Source of the DNA: Microvenator marinus
GTDB lineage: Bacteria > Myxococcota_A > Bradymonadia > Bradymonadales > Bradymonadaceae
Direction of reading: 5' to 3'
Length of the DNA stretch: 64,000 nucleotides
Assembly (NCBI RefSeq): GCF_007993755.1
Contig: NZ_CP042467.1
Span: 4,426,001-4,490,000 of the forward strand
Part shown: positions 1,962 to 60,112 of the stretch, one piece after another
How positions within the stretch are numbered: the first letter of the stretch is position 1
How the letters are laid out: the number at the start of each line of letters is the position of its first letter
Notes under the pieces: generated by a model
The model's input: the letters and a program-made list of their open reading frames with translations, nothing else
What the model was told of the DNA's origin: nothing
Database searches by the model: none
Program-made: the position numbers and the translations under genes

Positions 1962-3944
1962 TTAACCGAATCTGAAGTGAGCTAACTTTTCCAAAACAAT
2001 TTCTTCCAGGAACTCAAAATAGAGGTCGATGTAATTCGAACCATCCTCATTCGGAGTCAGAAGCCACGGATTCATGAGGGTGTGACGAAGCACCAAGAGC
2101 GATTCGTCTCCAGGGGCCGGCGCGTCGAGCCCTAGTAATTTATGGGCCTCGTGGGTTCGAGGGCCATAGTGTTCCTCCACGAGCCTTGTTGACGACACGA
2201 TGAACGACCGGTTCTGAATCGGCCCATCTTGGACCGGTCCAAGCTTCTTCAAGAGCTCCTTTCCAAAGGCGTTGGCGACCTTCAGGTCGCGATTGCCGGT
2301 GGGGTTGAGGGCAAAGCAGGCGATATTCGTATCAGGCTCAAAGGGCATAGCCAGAACCACCTTGTCCGCCATTCGAGCCGCCCATGCTTGGGCGACGTCC
2401 CAAAAATACTCACAGGAATGGATGGAGTTGCCGATGATTTTTCCAAACCCTTTGTGGTTCAGAGGAATGACTCGATGTGTGATATAAGCGCTGGCCACAG
2501 TGGAGCCGGGCTTCGAGCCCTCCATGATATATTGTCCGAGTTTTCGGAAGCGGGAATCATCCGCAGACTCGCCGTCAAAGACGTAGGCGGCATCTTGTCG
2601 GACGAACTCAACGATATCTCGATTCCGAGCGATATACGCGCCTGCGGGGTATGGTATGAACGCGAGTTTATGCGGGTCGATCGTAGCTGAGTCGGTCTTG
2701 GATGTGGCATCAAACGCGTTGTATACCTCGGCGCTCGGAAAGTACTTAAACTCTGCCTTGAGCTCCGCATGTGGCCTGAGCGTGCCATCTTCCGCCTTGA
2801 AGAGGCTTCGAAGGTAGCCACCCCACGCCGCGTCGAGGTGGATCCCGAATTCCTGTCCACGCAAACGGCACGTCTGTCGCGCCGCTACCACGCCGTCTAC
2901 AGGGTCGATGGCGCCAAACTCCGTGGTTCCGAGCACCGGCACCACCAAAAGGACGGTGTCTTTAGCGTCATGAGCGTAATCGAGGAGCTGCTGCAAGGAT
3001 TCGAGCTCCATTCGCATATCCATGTCCACCGCGATCATGTCTAAGTTGGAGGTACCGAGACCCATGAGTTTCATGGCTTTTTCCCATGAATAGTGGGCGC
3101 TCGCAGGAACCATAACTCTAAGGCGACCGAGCTCTGGATGGCGTCTTTGAAACTCGGTAAGTCCAAGGGTTTCGTATCGTTGAGCGTCAACGAGATCCGC
3201 CCAATTTTGGATGCCCAATTCTTGAGCGCTCTTGTGGGCAGCCGCGCGAATGTCGAGGGCTTCTTCGACGCTCATATTTGCAAGCCGGCGCGGGGAGATG
3301 TCTCGGATGAGCTGGCCCTCCCATTTGAGATCGGCGTCTAGCTCACGGGCAGCTTCGCCAAGCGCCACGGGGAAAAGTCTTGCCGCCATCAGGTTCTTGA
3401 GTCCTTCGTAGTTGGCGATGGTGCCGCCCGATGTCATATGGCCAAACGCCTTGATGGGCCCGGAGAGGCTGTAGCCCAGCATTTCGGCTAGCTGTTCTCC
3501 GACTTCGAGCTCCTTTTCGATGGTGGCTGGGCTCGCGTCTTCGCTCACATGGTTGGGGTTGTAAAGAAGCGTCGCGATACGTGCGACCACACCTGGGATG
3601 AGCAAGTCGCTCGCCATGTGTCCAATATAGCGAGGGCTAAAAAAGGGAATCGCCGCCTTGAGGTCCGCGCTCAGACGGTACATCTCGGACTTCAGCAAGG
3701 CCACGAACTCCTGATACTCTGGCGTGAATTGAGCTGCGGTCGGGATGGGCGGCTGGGACTCCGGATGAAAGTTGCGGCGCCAGTACATGTGATCGCGCAT
3801 CGCCTCGTTGACAAGGTCCTCAACAAGTTGGTGGTTTTCACCGTATGCGCCTAGAAACCAGGGATAAAAATCTTTCATAAGTGTATTTGCGTAGAGGAGG
3901 GCTTTGTCCTCTTCAGTTGAGTAGTGGGAAAGCGAGTATTTCAA
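1962..3944 (-). CDS. PLP-dependent group II decarboxylase, tyrosine-decarboxylase-like
   Basis: This 660-residue enzyme should remove the carboxyl group of an amino acid to give an amine. Visible motifs are the PLP-stacking His in SAHYSWEKA (H284), the PLP-nitrogen Asp in HLDAAWGG (D371) and the Schiff-base lysine in TIDPHKL (K426). The N-terminal stretch around residues 30-65 (GENHQL...WRRNFHPE) and the overall length match bacterial tyrosine decarboxylases (about 620 residues) better than the 460-residue GadB type, so Tyr or another aromatic amino acid is the best guess. The upstream-most start is a TTG at 3944 without a clear Shine-Dalgarno; an ATG at 3878 is an alternative but would trim residues that look homologous. 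No amine antiporter gene is adjacent. It is transcribed divergently from the RND operon. Confidence 0.85.
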   Translation of the reverse strand: MKYSLSHYSTEEDKALLYANTLMKDFYPWFLGAYGENHQLVEDLVNEAMRDHMYWRRNFHPESQPPIPTAAQFTPEYQEFVALLKSEMYRLSADLKAAIPFFSPRYIGHMASDLLIPGVVARIATLLYNPNHVSEDASPATIEKELEVGEQLAEMLGYSLSGPIKAFGHMTSGGTIANYEGLKNLMAARLFPVALGEAARELDADLKWEGQLIRDISPRRLANMSVEEALDIRAAAHKSAQELGIQNWADLVDAQRYETLGLTEFQRRHPELGRLRVMVPASAHYSWEKAMKLMGLGTSNLDMIAVDMDMRMELESLQQLLDYAHDAKDTVLLVVPVLGTTEFGAIDPVDGVVAARQTCRLRGQEFGIHLDAAWGGYLRSLFKAEDGTLRPHAELKAEFKYFPSAEVYNAFDATSKTDSATIDPHKLAFIPYPAGAYIARNRDIVEFVRQDAAYVFDGESADDSRFRKLGQYIMEGSKPGSTVASAYITHRVIPLNHKGFGKIIGNSIHSCEYFWDVAQAWAARMADKVVLAMPFEPDTNIACFALNPTGNRDLKVANAFGKELLKKLGPVQDGPIQNRSFIVSSTRLVEEHYGPRTHEAHKLLGLDAPAPGDESLLVLRHTLMNPWLLTPNEDGSNYIDLYFEFLEEIVLEKLAHFRFG

Positions 3945-19905: not shown

Positions 19906-19946
19906 TGAATTTGCGTGGAATAGCTACACCACACTCCCCTTGTGTA

Positions 19947-19967
19947 CAAGCAGGCTCCGTTTGCTTG
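19947..19967. repeat. Intergenic stem-loop repeat, copy 1
   Basis: Arms CAAGCAG and TTGCTTG enclose the loop GCTCCGT: six Watson-Crick pairs plus a G-T closing pair. It belongs to the dispersed family also seen at 29833-29903 and 50753-50871. It sits about 40 bases upstream of the dehydrogenase start, between two divergent genes. Confidence 0.6.
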
Positions 19968-19973
19968 GAATTC

Positions 19974-20027
19974 TTCTCAAAAAAATTAACTTTTTTCGCA
20001 ACATTTTCGAATTTTGTCCGAAAATAA
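19974..20027 (+). repeat. Upstream block shared by the two coiled-coil genes (copy A)
   Basis: This 54-base AT-rich block precedes the gene at 20098 and aligns without gaps to the block at 60161-60214 upstream of its truncated relative. Matches include the opening TTCTCAA and a perfect TTTTGTCCGAAAATAA at the end; 25 of the last 29 bases agree, 37 of 54 overall. It may hold the family's promoter or operator. Confidence 0.7.
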
Positions 20028-20097
20028 GAATACGGGCCCAAGTTTTGGGCGCCGTAACTTTGATTACAACCAACTAAACCCGATTAAGGGGGATAGA

Positions 20098-20931
20098 ATG
20101 ATAAAGCTAACGCCCAAAATGGCGAAGCCGCACGAGGCATGGTGCCTCAACATCGCATTGCAGGTGTGCGGCGAAGTCAGAAAACACGAATCCTTTCGCC
20201 AACACCGGACAGTGGACGCGATACTCCATATGCCGAATCCAGTGGCCCATTGGGGACCATTGGCAGGTCTTTTGTGCAGACGAGACGTACTGGTTGAGCA
20301 TTTTTCGAACTCAGTGAGTTTGTCCGATTTAGGATCCTGTCGCGAGAAGATCGGCTATGCGTCGTACCGGTACTTCACAACACGGATAAAGAATCGGACA
20401 GAGCTCCACCCATCCATGGTGATCTTGTCTCACCGCACGCCTGAACGTGTTCTTAAAGAACCCAACATGTTTGAAAAGACAACAAATAAAGGAATTTGGA
20501 GGTGGGGATCGGTGGAATGCGGCCCTATCTTCATCGTCGCCACCACGGCTCTGGAGGATACCCCTGAGTTTGAGTGGATGAAGATGACCACTCGCCTGCC
20601 CCAAACTCCAGGAGAGTTTGATAAGGCGGCGAGATTGATAAGTGAAAACATAAACGATAAAATAAAACCCGAAGATTTGGAGAAGACCATGTTTGATTTC
20701 ATGTATGTAGATGGGGTGAACGTTCTAACGTACGCCGAAGAGCAAAAGAAGGCCGCCGAAGAGCAAAAGAAGGCCGCCGAAGAGCAAAAGAAGGCCGCCG
20801 AAGAGCAGAAGAGGTTTGCGCAAGAAGTTCTTCGCGAACTTCAGGAGCAGAAAAAGCTCAATGAGGAGGCGAGGCGAGAAATCGAAGCACTTAAGGCTCA
20901 GATGAACGGGGGCGTCGCCTCCGACGACTGA
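20098..20931 (+). CDS. Coiled-coil protein of unknown family, intact member of a local pair
   Basis: The ATG at 20098 follows AAGGGGGA (20086-20093) and is preferred to the upstream TTG at 20014, which falls inside a conserved non-coding block. The 277-residue product has a globular N-terminal domain (to about 200) and a charged coiled coil made of heptad copies of AEEQKKA, ending in REIEALKAQMN. Residues around GIWRWGSVECGPIFIVATTALED match the start of the gene at 59435-60112. A segment VEHFSNSVS...REKIGYASYRYF is weakly reminiscent of the EHQS...RxxxY region of Rpn/YhgA-like PD-(D/E)XK proteins, which also often end in charged repeats, but I cannot confirm this. No signal peptide, so probably cytoplasmic. 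Confidence 0.7.
   Translation: MIKLTPKMAKPHEAWCLNIALQVCGEVRKHESFRQHRTVDAILHMPNPVAHWGPLAGLLCRRDVLVEHFSNSVSLSDLGSCREKIGYASYRYFTTRIKNRTELHPSMVILSHRTPERVLKEPNMFEKTTNKGIWRWGSVECGPIFIVATTALEDTPEFEWMKMTTRLPQTPGEFDKAARLISENINDKIKPEDLEKTMFDFMYVDGVNVLTYAEEQKKAAEEQKKAAEEQKKAAEEQKRFAQEVLRELQEQKKLNEEARREIEALKAQMNGGVASDD
20734..20817 (+). repeat. 21-bp in-frame tandem repeat encoding coiled-coil heptads
   Basis: Four 21-base units beginning GCCGAAGAGCA: the first three are identical, and the fourth diverges towards its end. Each encodes one heptad (AEEQKKA), so copy-number change would lengthen or shorten the coiled coil by whole heptad turns. Confidence 0.9.
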
Positions 20932-29832: not shown

Positions 29833-29903
29833 TCGCACACGAGCACAGAGCCCGCGTTGACTGGAATCGCAGGGTCGCATACGCGGACAGAGCCCGCGTA
29901 GAC
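29833..29903. repeat. Intergenic stem-loop repeat, copies 2 and 3 in tandem
   Basis: Two direct copies with a 42-base period. The second has arms TACGCGG (29880-29886) and CCGCGTA (29894-29900) around the loop ACAGAGC; its 29-base context (29875-29903) is identical to 50846-50874. The first (29833-29861) keeps the loop but only four of seven arm pairs. They lie between the NfuA-like gene and the small membrane protein gene. Confidence 0.8.
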
Positions 29904-42228: not shown

Positions 42229-42963
42229 CTACCCAACTAACGAGGAAGGAGCCCTCGTTGACACGAGTTCCAGCGCCAGTTTCCTTGCTTTTTCAGACTC
42301 GCCTGCGCCAATGGCCTCGGCGATGGTTCGATGAGAAGACAAGTTGTTGAGCTCCTCCATCAGGACTACCGCCATCAATTCACGCATCTGATCGTAGAGC
42401 TCTCGAATCGAGTTGAAGGCGAGTTGGTAGGCGACGTTTTGCGAACCTCGAATGACGGTCGCCCAGAACTCCATGTTTAGGTCTTGGCGTGCGCTCAAGT
42501 CGCCAAGCTTCATCTCTTCACAAATCCTGAGCAGGTTTTCAGCGATCTCCGGGCTTCGAATCGCGCAAAGTCTCGCGATATCAGCGGCCATGGCGCTTCG
42601 CATTTCCATCACGCTTCTCGCGACTTCAAAATCAATCTGACCATCCGCATCAAAAATGAGCGAAGAAATCAGCTCGGTGCCAGCGGTCTCCCAGAAGTCC
42701 AAGACTCGCGTAGATTCGCCTTGATGAATGGTGATGAGCTTTGCCTGTTCAAGGCGTTTGAGGGCTTCGCGGACGGCACCTCGGTTGACCCCAAGGGTTT
42801 CAGCCAAATGCCTCTCGCTCGGAAGTGTTTCGCCGGCCGCGAGCTCGCCCGCTAGAATTCTCTGTCTCAGTTGTTCAAAAACAGAGTCTGAGACAGATTT
42901 TTTCGTTATTGGCGTAAACATTTCGTCAACTCGTCGGTAGAATGCGTTCGACCAAGTGGTCAT
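42229..42963 (-). CDS. FadR-subfamily GntR transcriptional regulator
   Basis: The 244-residue protein has a winged HTH (VFEQLRQRILAGELAAGETLPSERHLAETLGVNRGAVREALKRLEQAKLI, about residues 28-80) and an all-helical FadR-type effector domain rich in Arg/Glu/Met (RSVMEMRSAMAADIARL, MEFWATVIRGSQN, SHRTIAEAI). The FCD metal site (D/N, H, H) is not obvious, so it may be closer to FadR proper, which binds acyl-CoA. The ATG at 42963 or Met15 (42921) could be the start. A perfect palindrome lies directly upstream (42967-42981), suggesting self-regulation; the divergent ferredoxin/SRPBCC genes are possible targets. Confidence 0.88.
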   Translation of the reverse strand: MTTWSNAFYRRVDEMFTPITKKSVSDSVFEQLRQRILAGELAAGETLPSERHLAETLGVNRGAVREALKRLEQAKLITIHQGESTRVLDFWETAGTELISSLIFDADGQIDFEVARSVMEMRSAMAADIARLCAIRSPEIAENLLRICEEMKLGDLSARQDLNMEFWATVIRGSQNVAYQLAFNSIRELYDQMRELMAVVLMEELNNLSSHRTIAEAIGAGESEKARKLALELVSTRAPSSLVG

Positions 42964-49505: not shown

Positions 49506-50333
49506 GTGACGTACTACGATGAAGTGAAATTGGCCGCAGATTGGCTAAAAGAGCGCGTGGGCAAGGTGCCTAGCGCCGCAATGGTGTTGGGCAGCGGGCT
49601 CGGGGCGATGGCCGAAGAACTGTCCGACTCGATGACCTTTGAATACTCGGAGATTCCGAACTTTCCGGTCTCAAAAGTCGAAGGACACGCTGGTCGTTTG
49701 GTGGTGGGCGAGTTGGCTGGAAAGACCGTAGCTGTGATGCAAGGTCGAGTACACTACTACGAAGGCTGGAGTGCTGAAGAGCTCACGCTCCCAATGCGCG
49801 CCTTTGGTCTATGGGGAATCGACAAAGTCATCATCACGAATGCTGCAGGTGGCATCAATCCGGACTTCAAGGCCGGAGATCTAATGTTGATCACCGACCA
49901 TATCAACTACATGGGCTTCAATCCCTTGCGTGGAGACAATGACGACCGCTTCGGGCCGAGATTCCCGGATATGTCGCACGCCTATAATCCTGAGATGCAA
50001 GACTTGATCGTTCGGGCGGCTAGAGAGCTCAACGTGCCTTTGAAAGCCGGCGTATACGTTGCAGTTGCGGGTCCTTCGTACGAGACGCCGGCCGAGATTC
50101 GAATGTTCGGGAAAGTCGGTGCCGATGCTGTTGGTATGTCAACCGTGCCCGAGGCCATCGTGGCAAATCACATGGGGCTCAAGGTGGGCGGCATCAGCTG
50201 CATTTCAAACCTCGCGGCGGGAATCTCTCCTACTAAACTCGACCACGCCGAGGTTAAGGCCACGGCCGATTTGGTGAAGGAAGCTTTCGCTAGCCTCGTG
50301 CGCAAAACGGTCGAACTCATGGACGCTGAATGA
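49506..50333 (+). CDS. punA: Purine nucleoside phosphorylase (class II, trimeric type)
   Basis: Starts with GTG at 49506, right after the TGA of the previous gene, with GGAGGA (49497-49502). The 275-residue enzyme has the NP-II signature: MVLGSGLGAMAEEL, GHAGRLVVGELAGKTVAVMQGRVHYYEGW, ITNAAGGINPDFKAGDLMLITDHIN, the base-binding VAVAGPSYETPAEIRMF and MSTVPEAIVANHMG. It phosphorolyses guanosine/inosine-type nucleosides to base and ribose-1-phosphate. It is coupled to cdd by an ATGA overlap (50330-50333). Confidence 0.94.
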   Translation: MTYYDEVKLAADWLKERVGKVPSAAMVLGSGLGAMAEELSDSMTFEYSEIPNFPVSKVEGHAGRLVVGELAGKTVAVMQGRVHYYEGWSAEELTLPMRAFGLWGIDKVIITNAAGGINPDFKAGDLMLITDHINYMGFNPLRGDNDDRFGPRFPDMSHAYNPEMQDLIVRAARELNVPLKAGVYVAVAGPSYETPAEIRMFGKVGADAVGMSTVPEAIVANHMGLKVGGISCISNLAAGISPTKLDHAEVKATADLVKEAFASLVRKTVELMDAE

Positions 50334-50749
50334 AAGATTTTGAAGGAATCAAAGGCGAGGTTTGGACTCGTTTGGCCTCGGAAGCTATTGAGGCCCAGAA
50401 CAGGGCGTATGCCCCTTATAGCGACTTCGCGGTGGGAGCCGCATTGCTTCTCGATGACGGAAGTATTGTCCACGGATGCAATGTGGAGAATGCCACGTTC
50501 GGCGCCACGGTATGTGCGGAGAGAACCGCTGTGGGCTCGGCGGTCGCCCTTGGAAAACGCAAGTTTCTGGCAATCGCGGTTGTGACGCCAGCGGATTCAT
50601 GTGTGGCGCCGTGTGGCATCTGCCGACAAGTGCTCGCCGAGTTTTCTGAAAAATTGCCGATTCTGCTTTCAAACAATGCGGGCGAACACGAATTTGTGAC
50701 GATTGATGAGTTGTTGCCACACCGCTTCAGAAAGTCGGATTTCGTTTGA
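50330..50749 (+). CDS. cdd: Cytidine deaminase
   Basis: The 139-residue protein matches the short tetrameric cytidine deaminases. Zinc and proton-shuttle residues lie in the CAE and PCGIC motifs: CNVENATFGATVCAERTAVGSAVALG (zinc Cys and catalytic Glu) and VAPCGICRQVLAEF (two zinc Cys). It converts cytidine and deoxycytidine to uridine forms, complementing punA in nucleoside salvage. It is the last gene of the operon; a stem-loop repeat starts four bases after its stop. Confidence 0.94.
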   Translation: MKDFEGIKGEVWTRLASEAIEAQNRAYAPYSDFAVGAALLLDDGSIVHGCNVENATFGATVCAERTAVGSAVALGKRKFLAIAVVTPADSCVAPCGICRQVLAEFSEKLPILLSNNAGEHEFVTIDELLPHRFRKSDFV

Positions 50750-50752
50750 GTA

Positions 50753-50773
50753 CAAGCGGGCTCTGTCCGCTTG
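50753..50773. repeat. Intergenic stem-loop repeat, copy 4 (opposite orientation)
   Basis: Arms CAAGCGG and CCGCTTG pair perfectly (7 bp) around the loop GCTCTGT, the complement of the ACAGAGC loop in the other copies. It starts four bases after the cdd stop, so it could also end transcription. A worn further copy (core GGACAGTGCCCGC) lies at about 50779-50791. Confidence 0.8.
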
Positions 50774-50850
50774 GGATGGACAGTGCCCGCTCACGTTAGA
50801 ACCGAAGCCAACTAACGATCTGGTTGAAGGACCTGGAACTAGGAATCGCA

Positions 50851-50871
50851 TACGCGGACAGAGCCCGCGTA
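50851..50871. repeat. Intergenic stem-loop repeat, copy 5
   Basis: Arms TACGCGG and CCGCGTA around ACAGAGC. The 29 bases 50846-50874 are identical to 29875-29903. It lies between the convergent cdd and rtcB genes, 29 bases from the rtcB stop. Confidence 0.85.
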
Positions 50872-50899
50872 GACAGTGAGTCGCAAACGACAAGATGCA

Positions 50900-52297
50900 T
50901 CAATCCTCTGGCGGCTCTCCGGCGGGAGCCATCTTGACGATCTTGGGGCTGAACTTCGCGACGATGTCCACGAGGTCGGTCTGTGCGCGCATCACCTCGT
51001 CGATATCCTTGTAGACATCGGGTGCTTCGTCCACGCCGGCTGAGAGCAGTGTGATGTCTTTCTCAGCTAGACTCTTTTTAACCTTGGACCAATTGACTGT
51101 TTCCTTGGCCTTGGTGCGCGACATTACGCGCCCCGCACCGTGGGAAGCGGACTTTAAGGATTCAGCGGCACCGCGTCCACGCACCACATAGCCAGGCGTG
51201 GCCATGGAGCCAGGAATAATCCCGAGCACACCTTCATCGGCGGGCGTGGCTCCCTTTCTATGCACGTAGACTTCCTTGGAGTCATGGATCTCCTTCCAGG
51301 CAAAGTTATGGTGATTCTCTACATCAGCGAGCACCTTTGCGCCCAATGCCTTTGAGACCATGCGGTGGATCATCTCGTGGTTTGCCGCCGCATATCGCCC
51401 CATCAGGTTCATGGCTTCCCAGTATTCCTGGCCCGCCTCCGAGTCCATGTCCAGCCAGGCCAGATGTTGAAGTTCCTTTGGTAACTCTGGGTGGAGCTCG
51501 CGGGCGAGCTTCGAATAGTGACCGGCCACGGTGGCGCCCGCACCACGACTCCCTGAGTGCGAGAGAAGGGCTAGATAAGTGCCTGCCTCAAGCCCAAGGT
51601 CTGGTGAGTTGAGTTCGAGCGTTCCAAACTCTACGAAGTGGTTTCCAGAACCGCTTGTGCCGAGTTGTGCCCACGCTTTGTCCTTGAGGCGCTTCGTGAC
51701 CGGCCCTTCGGACCATGTGTCCTCTTCCAAGACCTCGTGGTCGCGCCTATCACGGCCCCGGAACTGCGCTCCCATTCCAAACCGTGTTTCGGACTCGATA
51801 GCCTTGATAAGCCTCTCCTTCTCGCCCTTGATGGCGTGCACGGGTGTGTCGAGCACCGTCAGCTTCATTCGACACGCGATATCCACCCCCACGGCGTATG
51901 GAATGATAGCGTTCTCGGTGGCGAGGACTCCGCCAATCGGGAGGCCGTAGCCTACGTGGGCGTCGGGCATCAGCGCCCCTTGCACCGCCACGGGTAGACG
52001 ACACGCGTTTTCGAGTTGGCGAATGGCGCTCTCGTCGAGGTCATCTCCATATTTCGCCCATGGCGCCGGAGTTTCGCGCTCCCTCCAGGTGGCAACGGGT
52101 GTATTGATGAGAAGCGTCGCCAATTCGCCAAACGTAGGGTCGGCGACAAACTCATGAGGTGCAATGGAGAGTGATCTCACAGTTCGTCTGACTTCTGCCG
52201 CCTTGGCTCCTCCGCGGCGTGCGTTGGTGACTGCGGCAATGGCAGCCTTGAGATGTTCTTTTGGGATCCCCAAGTTTATTAAATCGCGAGATTTCAT
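50900..52297 (-). CDS. rtcB: RtcB-family RNA ligase
   Basis: The 465-residue protein has the RtcB landmarks: ALMPDAHVGYGLPIGGVLATE, PYAVGVDIACRM (metal ligands D139, C142), GTSGSGNHF (N219, H220), SHSGSRG (H247), ENHHN (H330) and SHGAGRVMSR with the guanylated His386. RtcB joins 2',3'-cyclic-P (3'-P) and 5'-OH RNA ends with GTP and Mn(II), in tRNA splicing or in repair of cut RNA. All ligands are present. No archease or rtcA gene is adjacent. It gives the genome a second RNA-sealing route besides Hen1/Pnkp at 13-17 kb. Confidence 0.95.
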   Translation of the reverse strand: MKSRDLINLGIPKEHLKAAIAAVTNARRGGAKAAEVRRTVRSLSIAPHEFVADPTFGELATLLINTPVATWRERETPAPWAKYGDDLDESAIRQLENACRLPVAVQGALMPDAHVGYGLPIGGVLATENAIIPYAVGVDIACRMKLTVLDTPVHAIKGEKERLIKAIESETRFGMGAQFRGRDRRDHEVLEEDTWSEGPVTKRLKDKAWAQLGTSGSGNHFVEFGTLELNSPDLGLEAGTYLALLSHSGSRGAGATVAGHYSKLARELHPELPKELQHLAWLDMDSEAGQEYWEAMNLMGRYAAANHEMIHRMVSKALGAKVLADVENHHNFAWKEIHDSKEVYVHRKGATPADEGVLGIIPGSMATPGYVVRGRGAAESLKSASHGAGRVMSRTKAKETVNWSKVKKSLAEKDITLLSAGVDEAPDVYKDIDEVMRAQTDLVDIVAKFSPKIVKMAPAGEPPED

Positions 52298-59438: not shown

Positions 59439-60112
59439 CCCTTGTCCAAGAGTTGCTTTACCAGTCGCTCGAGTTCAGCAATTCTTCCACCGAGCTCGAC
59501 TCGGGTTGCGTCGTGGGCAGCGCGCTCCTCCTCAAGTGCGGCGCGCAGCATCGCGTTTTCTTCGCGCAGCGCGGAGATCTCCGCGCGCATTGAATCCATC
59601 TCAGATCGGTACTCGGCTCTTAGCTCTTCCCGGATCTCGGCTCTTAGCTCTTCCCGGATCTCGGCTCTTAGCTCTTCCCGAATCTCGGCTCTTAGCTCTT
59701 CCCGGATCTCGGCTCGCAGCTCCTCCCGGATCTCGGCTCTTAGCTCTTCCCGGATCTCGGCTCTTAGCTCTTCCCGGATCTTGGCGCGTTCTTGGGCACG
59801 GTATTGGTCCATTTGCCCGTGTAGTTGTTCGGTCCACCGCGCTAGTGTTTCTTCTAAAGATTCGGCGGATAGCCTTCCACTTCCCGATATCTGCATGATG
59901 TCCTCCAGGAGACGAAGCTTACTCGCCAGACTAAAGTGATCGCTCTCGTTGATCAACTCAATTATGTGCAGCAAGTCCTCGCCGGAGCTAGGGAAACGTG
60001 AAATGAGCTTTAGCCAACGGAACGACTTTTTGTCCGATAGACACGTTGTAGAAACTACGATGATCGGACCAAATTCCAGATGGCCGAAGCTCCATATTCC
60101 GGTATCAGCCAA
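59435..60112 (-). pseudogene. 5'-deleted relative of the coiled-coil gene at 20098-20931
   Basis: The frame (225 residues from a TTG at 60112) starts abruptly at GIWSFGHLEFGPIIVVSTTCLSD, matching the middle of the intact relative (GIWRWGSVECGPIFIVATTALED, about residue 135). It then follows it through FRWLKLISRFP and into a coiled coil made of eight-residue copies of AEIREELR. The in-frame codons upstream (AHYKILEPLAD) still resemble the family before a TAG at 60158, and the shared upstream block resumes at 60161. So a deletion has joined the promoter region to the 3' half. It may still be translated as a coiled-coil fragment; overlaps the giant gene's end by four bases. Confidence 0.65.
59612..59779. 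repeat. 24-bp tandem repeat, seven copies, in the coiled-coil gene
   Basis: Seven consecutive 24-base units starting CTCGGCTCTTAGC (plus strand), four identical in full and the others with one or a few changes (units at 59660 and 59708 differ). On the minus strand each encodes eight residues (AEIREELR). There are no spacers, so this is a coding tandem repeat, not CRISPR. Confidence 0.95.

Follow-up and report, generated by a model that had tools for sequence, protein, structure and literature searches.

A dispersed hairpin repeat of Microvenator marinus is best read as a new, lineage-specific REP/REPIN family that is now orphan and that points to mobilisation by a RAYT in the past. In its full form, this reading (probability roughly 70%) implies a REP family at the species or genus level whose replicative unit is a head-head dimer (REPIN) and that was spread by a Y1 transposase since lost or located outside the assembly. 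Evidence comes from a dimer between two convergent genes, the covariation of the hairpin arms, the orientation of neighbouring copies across the genome and the size of the gene gaps they occupy.

The dimer at 50750-50874 and further copies in the window

The region 50753-50871 of the window (the whole 64-kb stretch of DNA that was analysed) is the body of a 125-bp element at 50750-50874. This element is a complete REPIN-like head-head dimer composed of two inverted hairpins with their GT ends outside, and it fills the gap between two convergent genes: The left hairpin starts directly behind the TGA stop codon of the plus-strand gene 50330-50749, with no base between them, and the right hairpin stops 25 nt short of the end of the minus-strand gene 50900-52297. 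The left hairpin (50750-50773, plus strand) reads GTA-C-AAGCGGGC/TCT/GTCCGCTT-G and scores 48.6 bits (E 8.9e-13). The right one (50851-50874, minus strand) reads GTC-T-ACGCGGGC/TCT/GTCCGCGT-A with the tail TGCGAT and scores 43.0 bits. Between them lies a 77-nt spacer (50774-50850) that is unique in the genome. It includes a half copy (about 50777-50792, GGACAGTGCCCGCT) comprising the loop and one arm only, which is similar to the second half of the compact dimer at genome position 1575059.

Using a covariance model without filters, seven hairpin copies were found in the window (3891, 19944, 29838, 29880, 42239, 50750 and 50851), four of them at E<1e-6 and the other three at 4.6e-5, 0.0045 and 0.07. 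The stem-loop pattern GTMNANGMGGGCTCTGTCCKCNT with at most three mismatches has 6 matches in the window versus 0.01 expected from shuffles, so that the dispersed stem-loop repeat proposed in the initial annotation is real. The full hairpin at 29880-29903 (minus strand, 43.8 bits) is the same as the copy at 50851, and the identity claimed for 29875-29903 and 50846-50874 holds over all 29 nt. In tandem with it, in the same orientation and 42 nt apart, lies a worn hairpin (29838-29861, minus strand, 13.9 bits). A second worn but recognisable copy is located at 19944-19967 (plus strand, 17.7 bits, E 0.0045), where CAAGCAG pairs with TTGCTTG including a G-T pair. Two copies had been missed before: one at 3891-3914 (plus strand, GTA-G-AGGAGGGC, 31.7 bits) at the 5' end of the minus-strand ORF 1962-3944, and one at 42239-42262 (minus strand, 24.1 bits) at the convergent end of two ORFs. 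Five of the six copies listed originally are hairpins, whereas the sixth, near 50779, is only the half copy in the spacer. In addition to these hairpins, the window contains about eight tandem 24-nt units (CGGATCTCGGCTCTTAGCTCTTCC) at 59583-59833 within an ORF, which encode a repetitive charged segment, and at 20733-20816 an in-frame 21-nt tandem repeat with AEEQKKA-type units in ORF 20014-20931.

Structure, copy number and distribution of the hairpin

The 24-nt unit begins at a sharp 5' edge and reads GT[A/C]-N-ACG[A/C]GGGC-TCT-GTCC[T/G]CGT-N, followed by a weak 3' tail that is mainly RGATGRAC and in a minority of copies TGCGA. On one strand, it folds into a 9-bp stem in which C-G and G-T pairs close a TCT triloop; the seven-nucleotide loop described initially is in fact this triloop together with the closing pairs. 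GT forms the edge in 40 of 42 copies that were selected by the core alone, and the bases upstream of it show no conservation. The third base of the tag is A or C and the fourth is variable and paired, with GTAG proper in 2 of the 42 copies. The arms co-vary, as had been suggested. At the three variable outer pairs, 95%, 90% and 79% of the 42 core-selected copies, whose arms were unselected, are Watson-Crick paired, compared to shuffled means of 48%, 64% and 28%. In a larger set of 80 copies, which was chosen by the covariance model and therefore leans towards it, 98% of cells are paired, all four pair types occur at the stem foot, and 105 double-change cells were counted versus 34 after shuffling (0 of 500 shuffles as high). 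These double changes affect six of the nine stem pairs; shuffles and slid registers come nowhere near. The GT-footed strand folds slightly better than its complement due to the conserved G-T pair. Together with the one-sided tag, this strand asymmetry is suggestive of a single-strand transposase substrate. No Rfam family matched the 64-kb window above its gathering score.

The genome of M. marinus V1718, a predatory marine bradymonad (Myxococcota; PMC11509652), is a single contig of 5,847,748 bp with an estimated completeness of 97.5%. The 11-nt core GGACAGAGCCC occurs 42 times exactly, compared to 2 occurrences of the reversed control. A genome-wide covariance search, which the initial annotation had called for, yielded about 90 copies with pairing arms: at least 85 at E<0.01 with the first model and at least 90 with a refined one, with very worn copies undercounted since the best 150 candidates were scored per search. 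The outcome named initially as a refutation, a small number of further copies or arms that fail to pair, was not observed. Among 85 copies, 61 are fully intergenic, 14 lie at gene edges and 10 well inside genes, based on a simple hexamer-model gene caller that assigns about 91% of the genome to coding sequence and gives approximate start-side distances. The view that the repeat occurs only between genes is therefore correct for most copies, but not for these 10, and in the window the copies at 3891 and 42239 overlap a predicted ORF start and an ORF end, respectively. The copies are unevenly distributed, with 62 of 93 in 2.5-4.5 Mb. They are densest around the GC-skew switch near 2.7 Mb, which is probably the replication origin, and in the region after it, and very sparse near the opposite switch at about 0.5 Mb; genome positions 0-1.0 Mb and 4.5-5.0 Mb are REP-poor arcs. 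At the single REP at 3196607, a downstream stretch of about 70 nt is tandemly duplicated together with part of the hairpin.

Outside this genome, the family is nearly absent. One weak match was found in 20 genomes of family relatives, the core GGACAGAGCCC is not enriched in 57 other genomes, and the exact specific hairpin form has no match in 84,980 species genomes (a collection without the own genome). Therefore, the family is considered lineage-specific. A text search of the literature for REPIN or RAYT together with Bradymonad returned no relevant earlier paper.

Pair architecture and neighbouring genes

Among 24 neighbouring pairs at most 350 bp apart, 21 are inverted with GT outside, 3 are in tandem, and the inverted arrangement with GT inside does not occur. 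Within a dimer, the ends are usually of different stem types, and their identity is no higher than random, even slightly lower. The spacers comprise about 30-200 nt and have nothing in common beyond the tail. When 13 of them were searched genome-wide, they matched nothing but themselves, except for one spacer with a hairpin-like end, so that the idea that spacers were copied from elsewhere in the genome was rejected. It was also considered that spacers are ancestral intergenic DNA to whose gene edges hairpins were added, as almost all GT ends directly adjoin a gene and every spacer is unique. At convergent sites, gap statistics led to rejection of this idea: In 400 kb of sampled genome, convergent genes are separated by a median of 2.5 nt (35 of 44 gaps at most 30 nt), whereas the gaps with the three clear convergent dimers measure 150, 165 and 178 nt, of which only 25, 17 and 8 nt remain outside the dimer. 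Therefore, the spacer was inserted together with the ends. Dimers between divergent genes leave 48-102 nt of flank, shorter than the usual gaps. For the single copies, a simple hairpin scan for hidden partners was negative (4 of 49 versus 9 of 49 on the control strand); the single copy at 4112548 has a worn partner that is convincing by eye.

Copies inside genes leave the reading frames open. A PUFA-synthase-like protein whose carrier domains are repeated (genome 994500-999500) has a dimer at 997196-997328 within its coding sequence; this dimer encodes the peptides VHADSVRV/VHAGSVRV and SRGQSPRV, which form the two edges of linkers between domains. Similar peptides are present in two further PUFA/polyketide-synthase-like proteins, whose linkers are partly REP-built. 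A MenD-MenH fusion (genome 3130295-3132820) carries one copy in the linker of MenD and another where the two proteins are joined. The fusion is also found in one family relative, and the MenD linker with the copy is about 10-40 residues longer than in relatives, with exact boundaries blurred by divergence. The names of both kinds of protein are readings of the translations.

Relation to known REP systems and alternative explanations

The proposal of a REP-type element is supported by the dimer architecture, whereas the associated RAYT was searched for in the genome and not found. Y1_Tnp (PF01797) has no match in the genome; in the relatives set, the same search has matches in 34 of 58 genomes. 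The NCBIfam RAYT model NF047646 (REP_Tyr_transpos) reaches a best E of only 0.58, and TnpB (PF07282) has no match in the genome. It is unlikely that a RAYT gene was overlooked in the assembly. A Y2_Tnp search was uninformative, as it matched none of the control genomes. None of the hairpins adjoining RAYT genes of relatives is similar to the M. marinus unit. IS200/IS605 elements have subterminal hairpins that act as single strands with flanking guide or tag bases. The unit described here shares the single-strand hairpin and the flanking tag bases, but PF01797 and PF07282 are undetected.

In known systems, the Y1 transposase RAYT is responsible for the spread of REPINs. Their spacers are 'highly diverse', and singlets are remnants (PMC8049555). 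REPs are located no more than 20 bp from the ends of convergent ORFs, occur as heterodimers and also insert into genes in frame, the latter in Rickettsia, Opitutus and others (PMC3733652). With GTAG REPs/REPINs, the M. marinus family shares a hairpin in the range of 20-40 nt, an unpaired tag at the 5' foot, stems of 6-9 bp with G-T pairs, loops of 2-3 nt, covarying stem subtypes, head-head dimers with diverse spacers, the filling of gaps between genes and in-frame copies in genes (PMC3733652, PMC3116915, PMC8049555). In contrast to them, it has a GT[A/C] tag with a paired, variable fourth base, which falls outside the GTAG superfamily (GTAG, GYAG/GTRG/GTMG/GTGG), and about 90 copies in one lineage. 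CGTC REPs (Rickettsia RPE-4/RPE-6, Neisseria dRS3) are similar in their stems of 8-9 bp, the predominance of head-head dimers, frequent heterodimers, in-frame gene insertion and the lack of a known dedicated transposase (PMC3733652). They differ by a CGTC tag (CGTC/TGTC/CCTC in the superfamily) followed by A-T pairs, loops of 4-5 nt and a CCA tail, which is absent here, where tails are RGATG or TGCGA. Thus, a palindromic 24-nt hairpin with about 90 mostly extragenic copies at E<0.01 is a REP in the broad sense, and inverted pairs with outside tags and a spacer between them are arranged as REPINs; the family is called new and orphan because its tag is that of neither superfamily and no RAYT gene with this REP at its flanks was detected in the genome.

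Other explanations account for parts of the pattern. It is rather improbable that the hairpins have a function as RNA or DNA sites, i.e. as mRNA 3'-end stabilizers, 5'UTR elements or protein-binding sites selected at gene edges, with pairs arising where an intergenic region has one at each edge. The conservation of hairpins but not spacers, the conserved G-T pair with its compensatory changes and the location of the GT end 0-8 nt past stop codons or about 7-30 nt ahead of start codons at many sites would agree with such sites. However, a single orientation rule at 5' and 3' gene edges would place opposite RNA strands in the same role, pairs are far more common than independent edges would yield, convergent gaps with a dimer exceed the 2.5-nt background by the whole length of that dimer, and one dimer resides within the PUFA synthase coding sequence. 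It is highly unlikely that these are MITEs that descend from a DDE transposon and whose complex terminal inverted repeats are the hairpins. Inverted ends, a length of 80-250 bp and the lack of coding capacity would fit, but no target-site duplication is visible at the filled sites of 21 dimers, and the ends of one element usually differ in stem sequence and hence do not represent a single fixed terminal repeat. Moreover, each end by itself folds into a self-complementary hairpin, and single ends are frequent. Bidirectional intrinsic terminators that share their sequence by chance are scarcely credible. Stable GC-rich hairpins do lie between convergent genes, including those at 50750-50874, but the terminator reading was dropped as the hairpins are not followed by a T-run, the sequence of the loop and its closing pairs is conserved, and copies are present upstream of start codons and inside genes.

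According to the orphan REPIN reading, a Y1 (HUH) transposase of the RAYT or IS200/IS605 type would have recognised the single-stranded hairpins, cut at the foot that bears the GT tag and copied the dimer into other sites. Insertions would have survived mainly where they were least harmful, i.e. immediately after stop codons, closely upstream of ribosome-binding sites and in inter-domain linkers. The enzyme would since have been lost or be encoded outside the assembly, and most single copies would be dimers of which one end is worn. It is possible that the transcribed hairpins have a role today, e.g. in 3'-end protection or as a barrier to RNA decay, although the pattern does not require it. 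Several observations speak against this explanation: the negative searches for Y1_Tnp and REP_Tyr_transpos in the genome, the tag that is neither GTAG nor CGTC, the short flanks of dimers between divergent genes, and the good conservation of the ends compared to spacers that have no sequence in common. Neutral decay after loss of the transposase should erode both alike, unless the spacers were already diverse. Alternatively, the population might still be alive or maintained without a Y1 transposase, either because an unrelated, unrecognised enzyme mobilises the dimers or because selection keeps the hairpins as a lineage-specific RNA or DNA element while the spacers drift; this we regard as unlikely.

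The family adds a REP with a tag of its own from the Bradymonadia. It provides a clear example of a REPIN population that is apparently orphan and whose hairpins are intact beside diverged spacers. Furthermore, it shows mobile hairpins that have turned into protein linkers, as exemplified by the VHAGSVRV and SRGQSPRV peptides.
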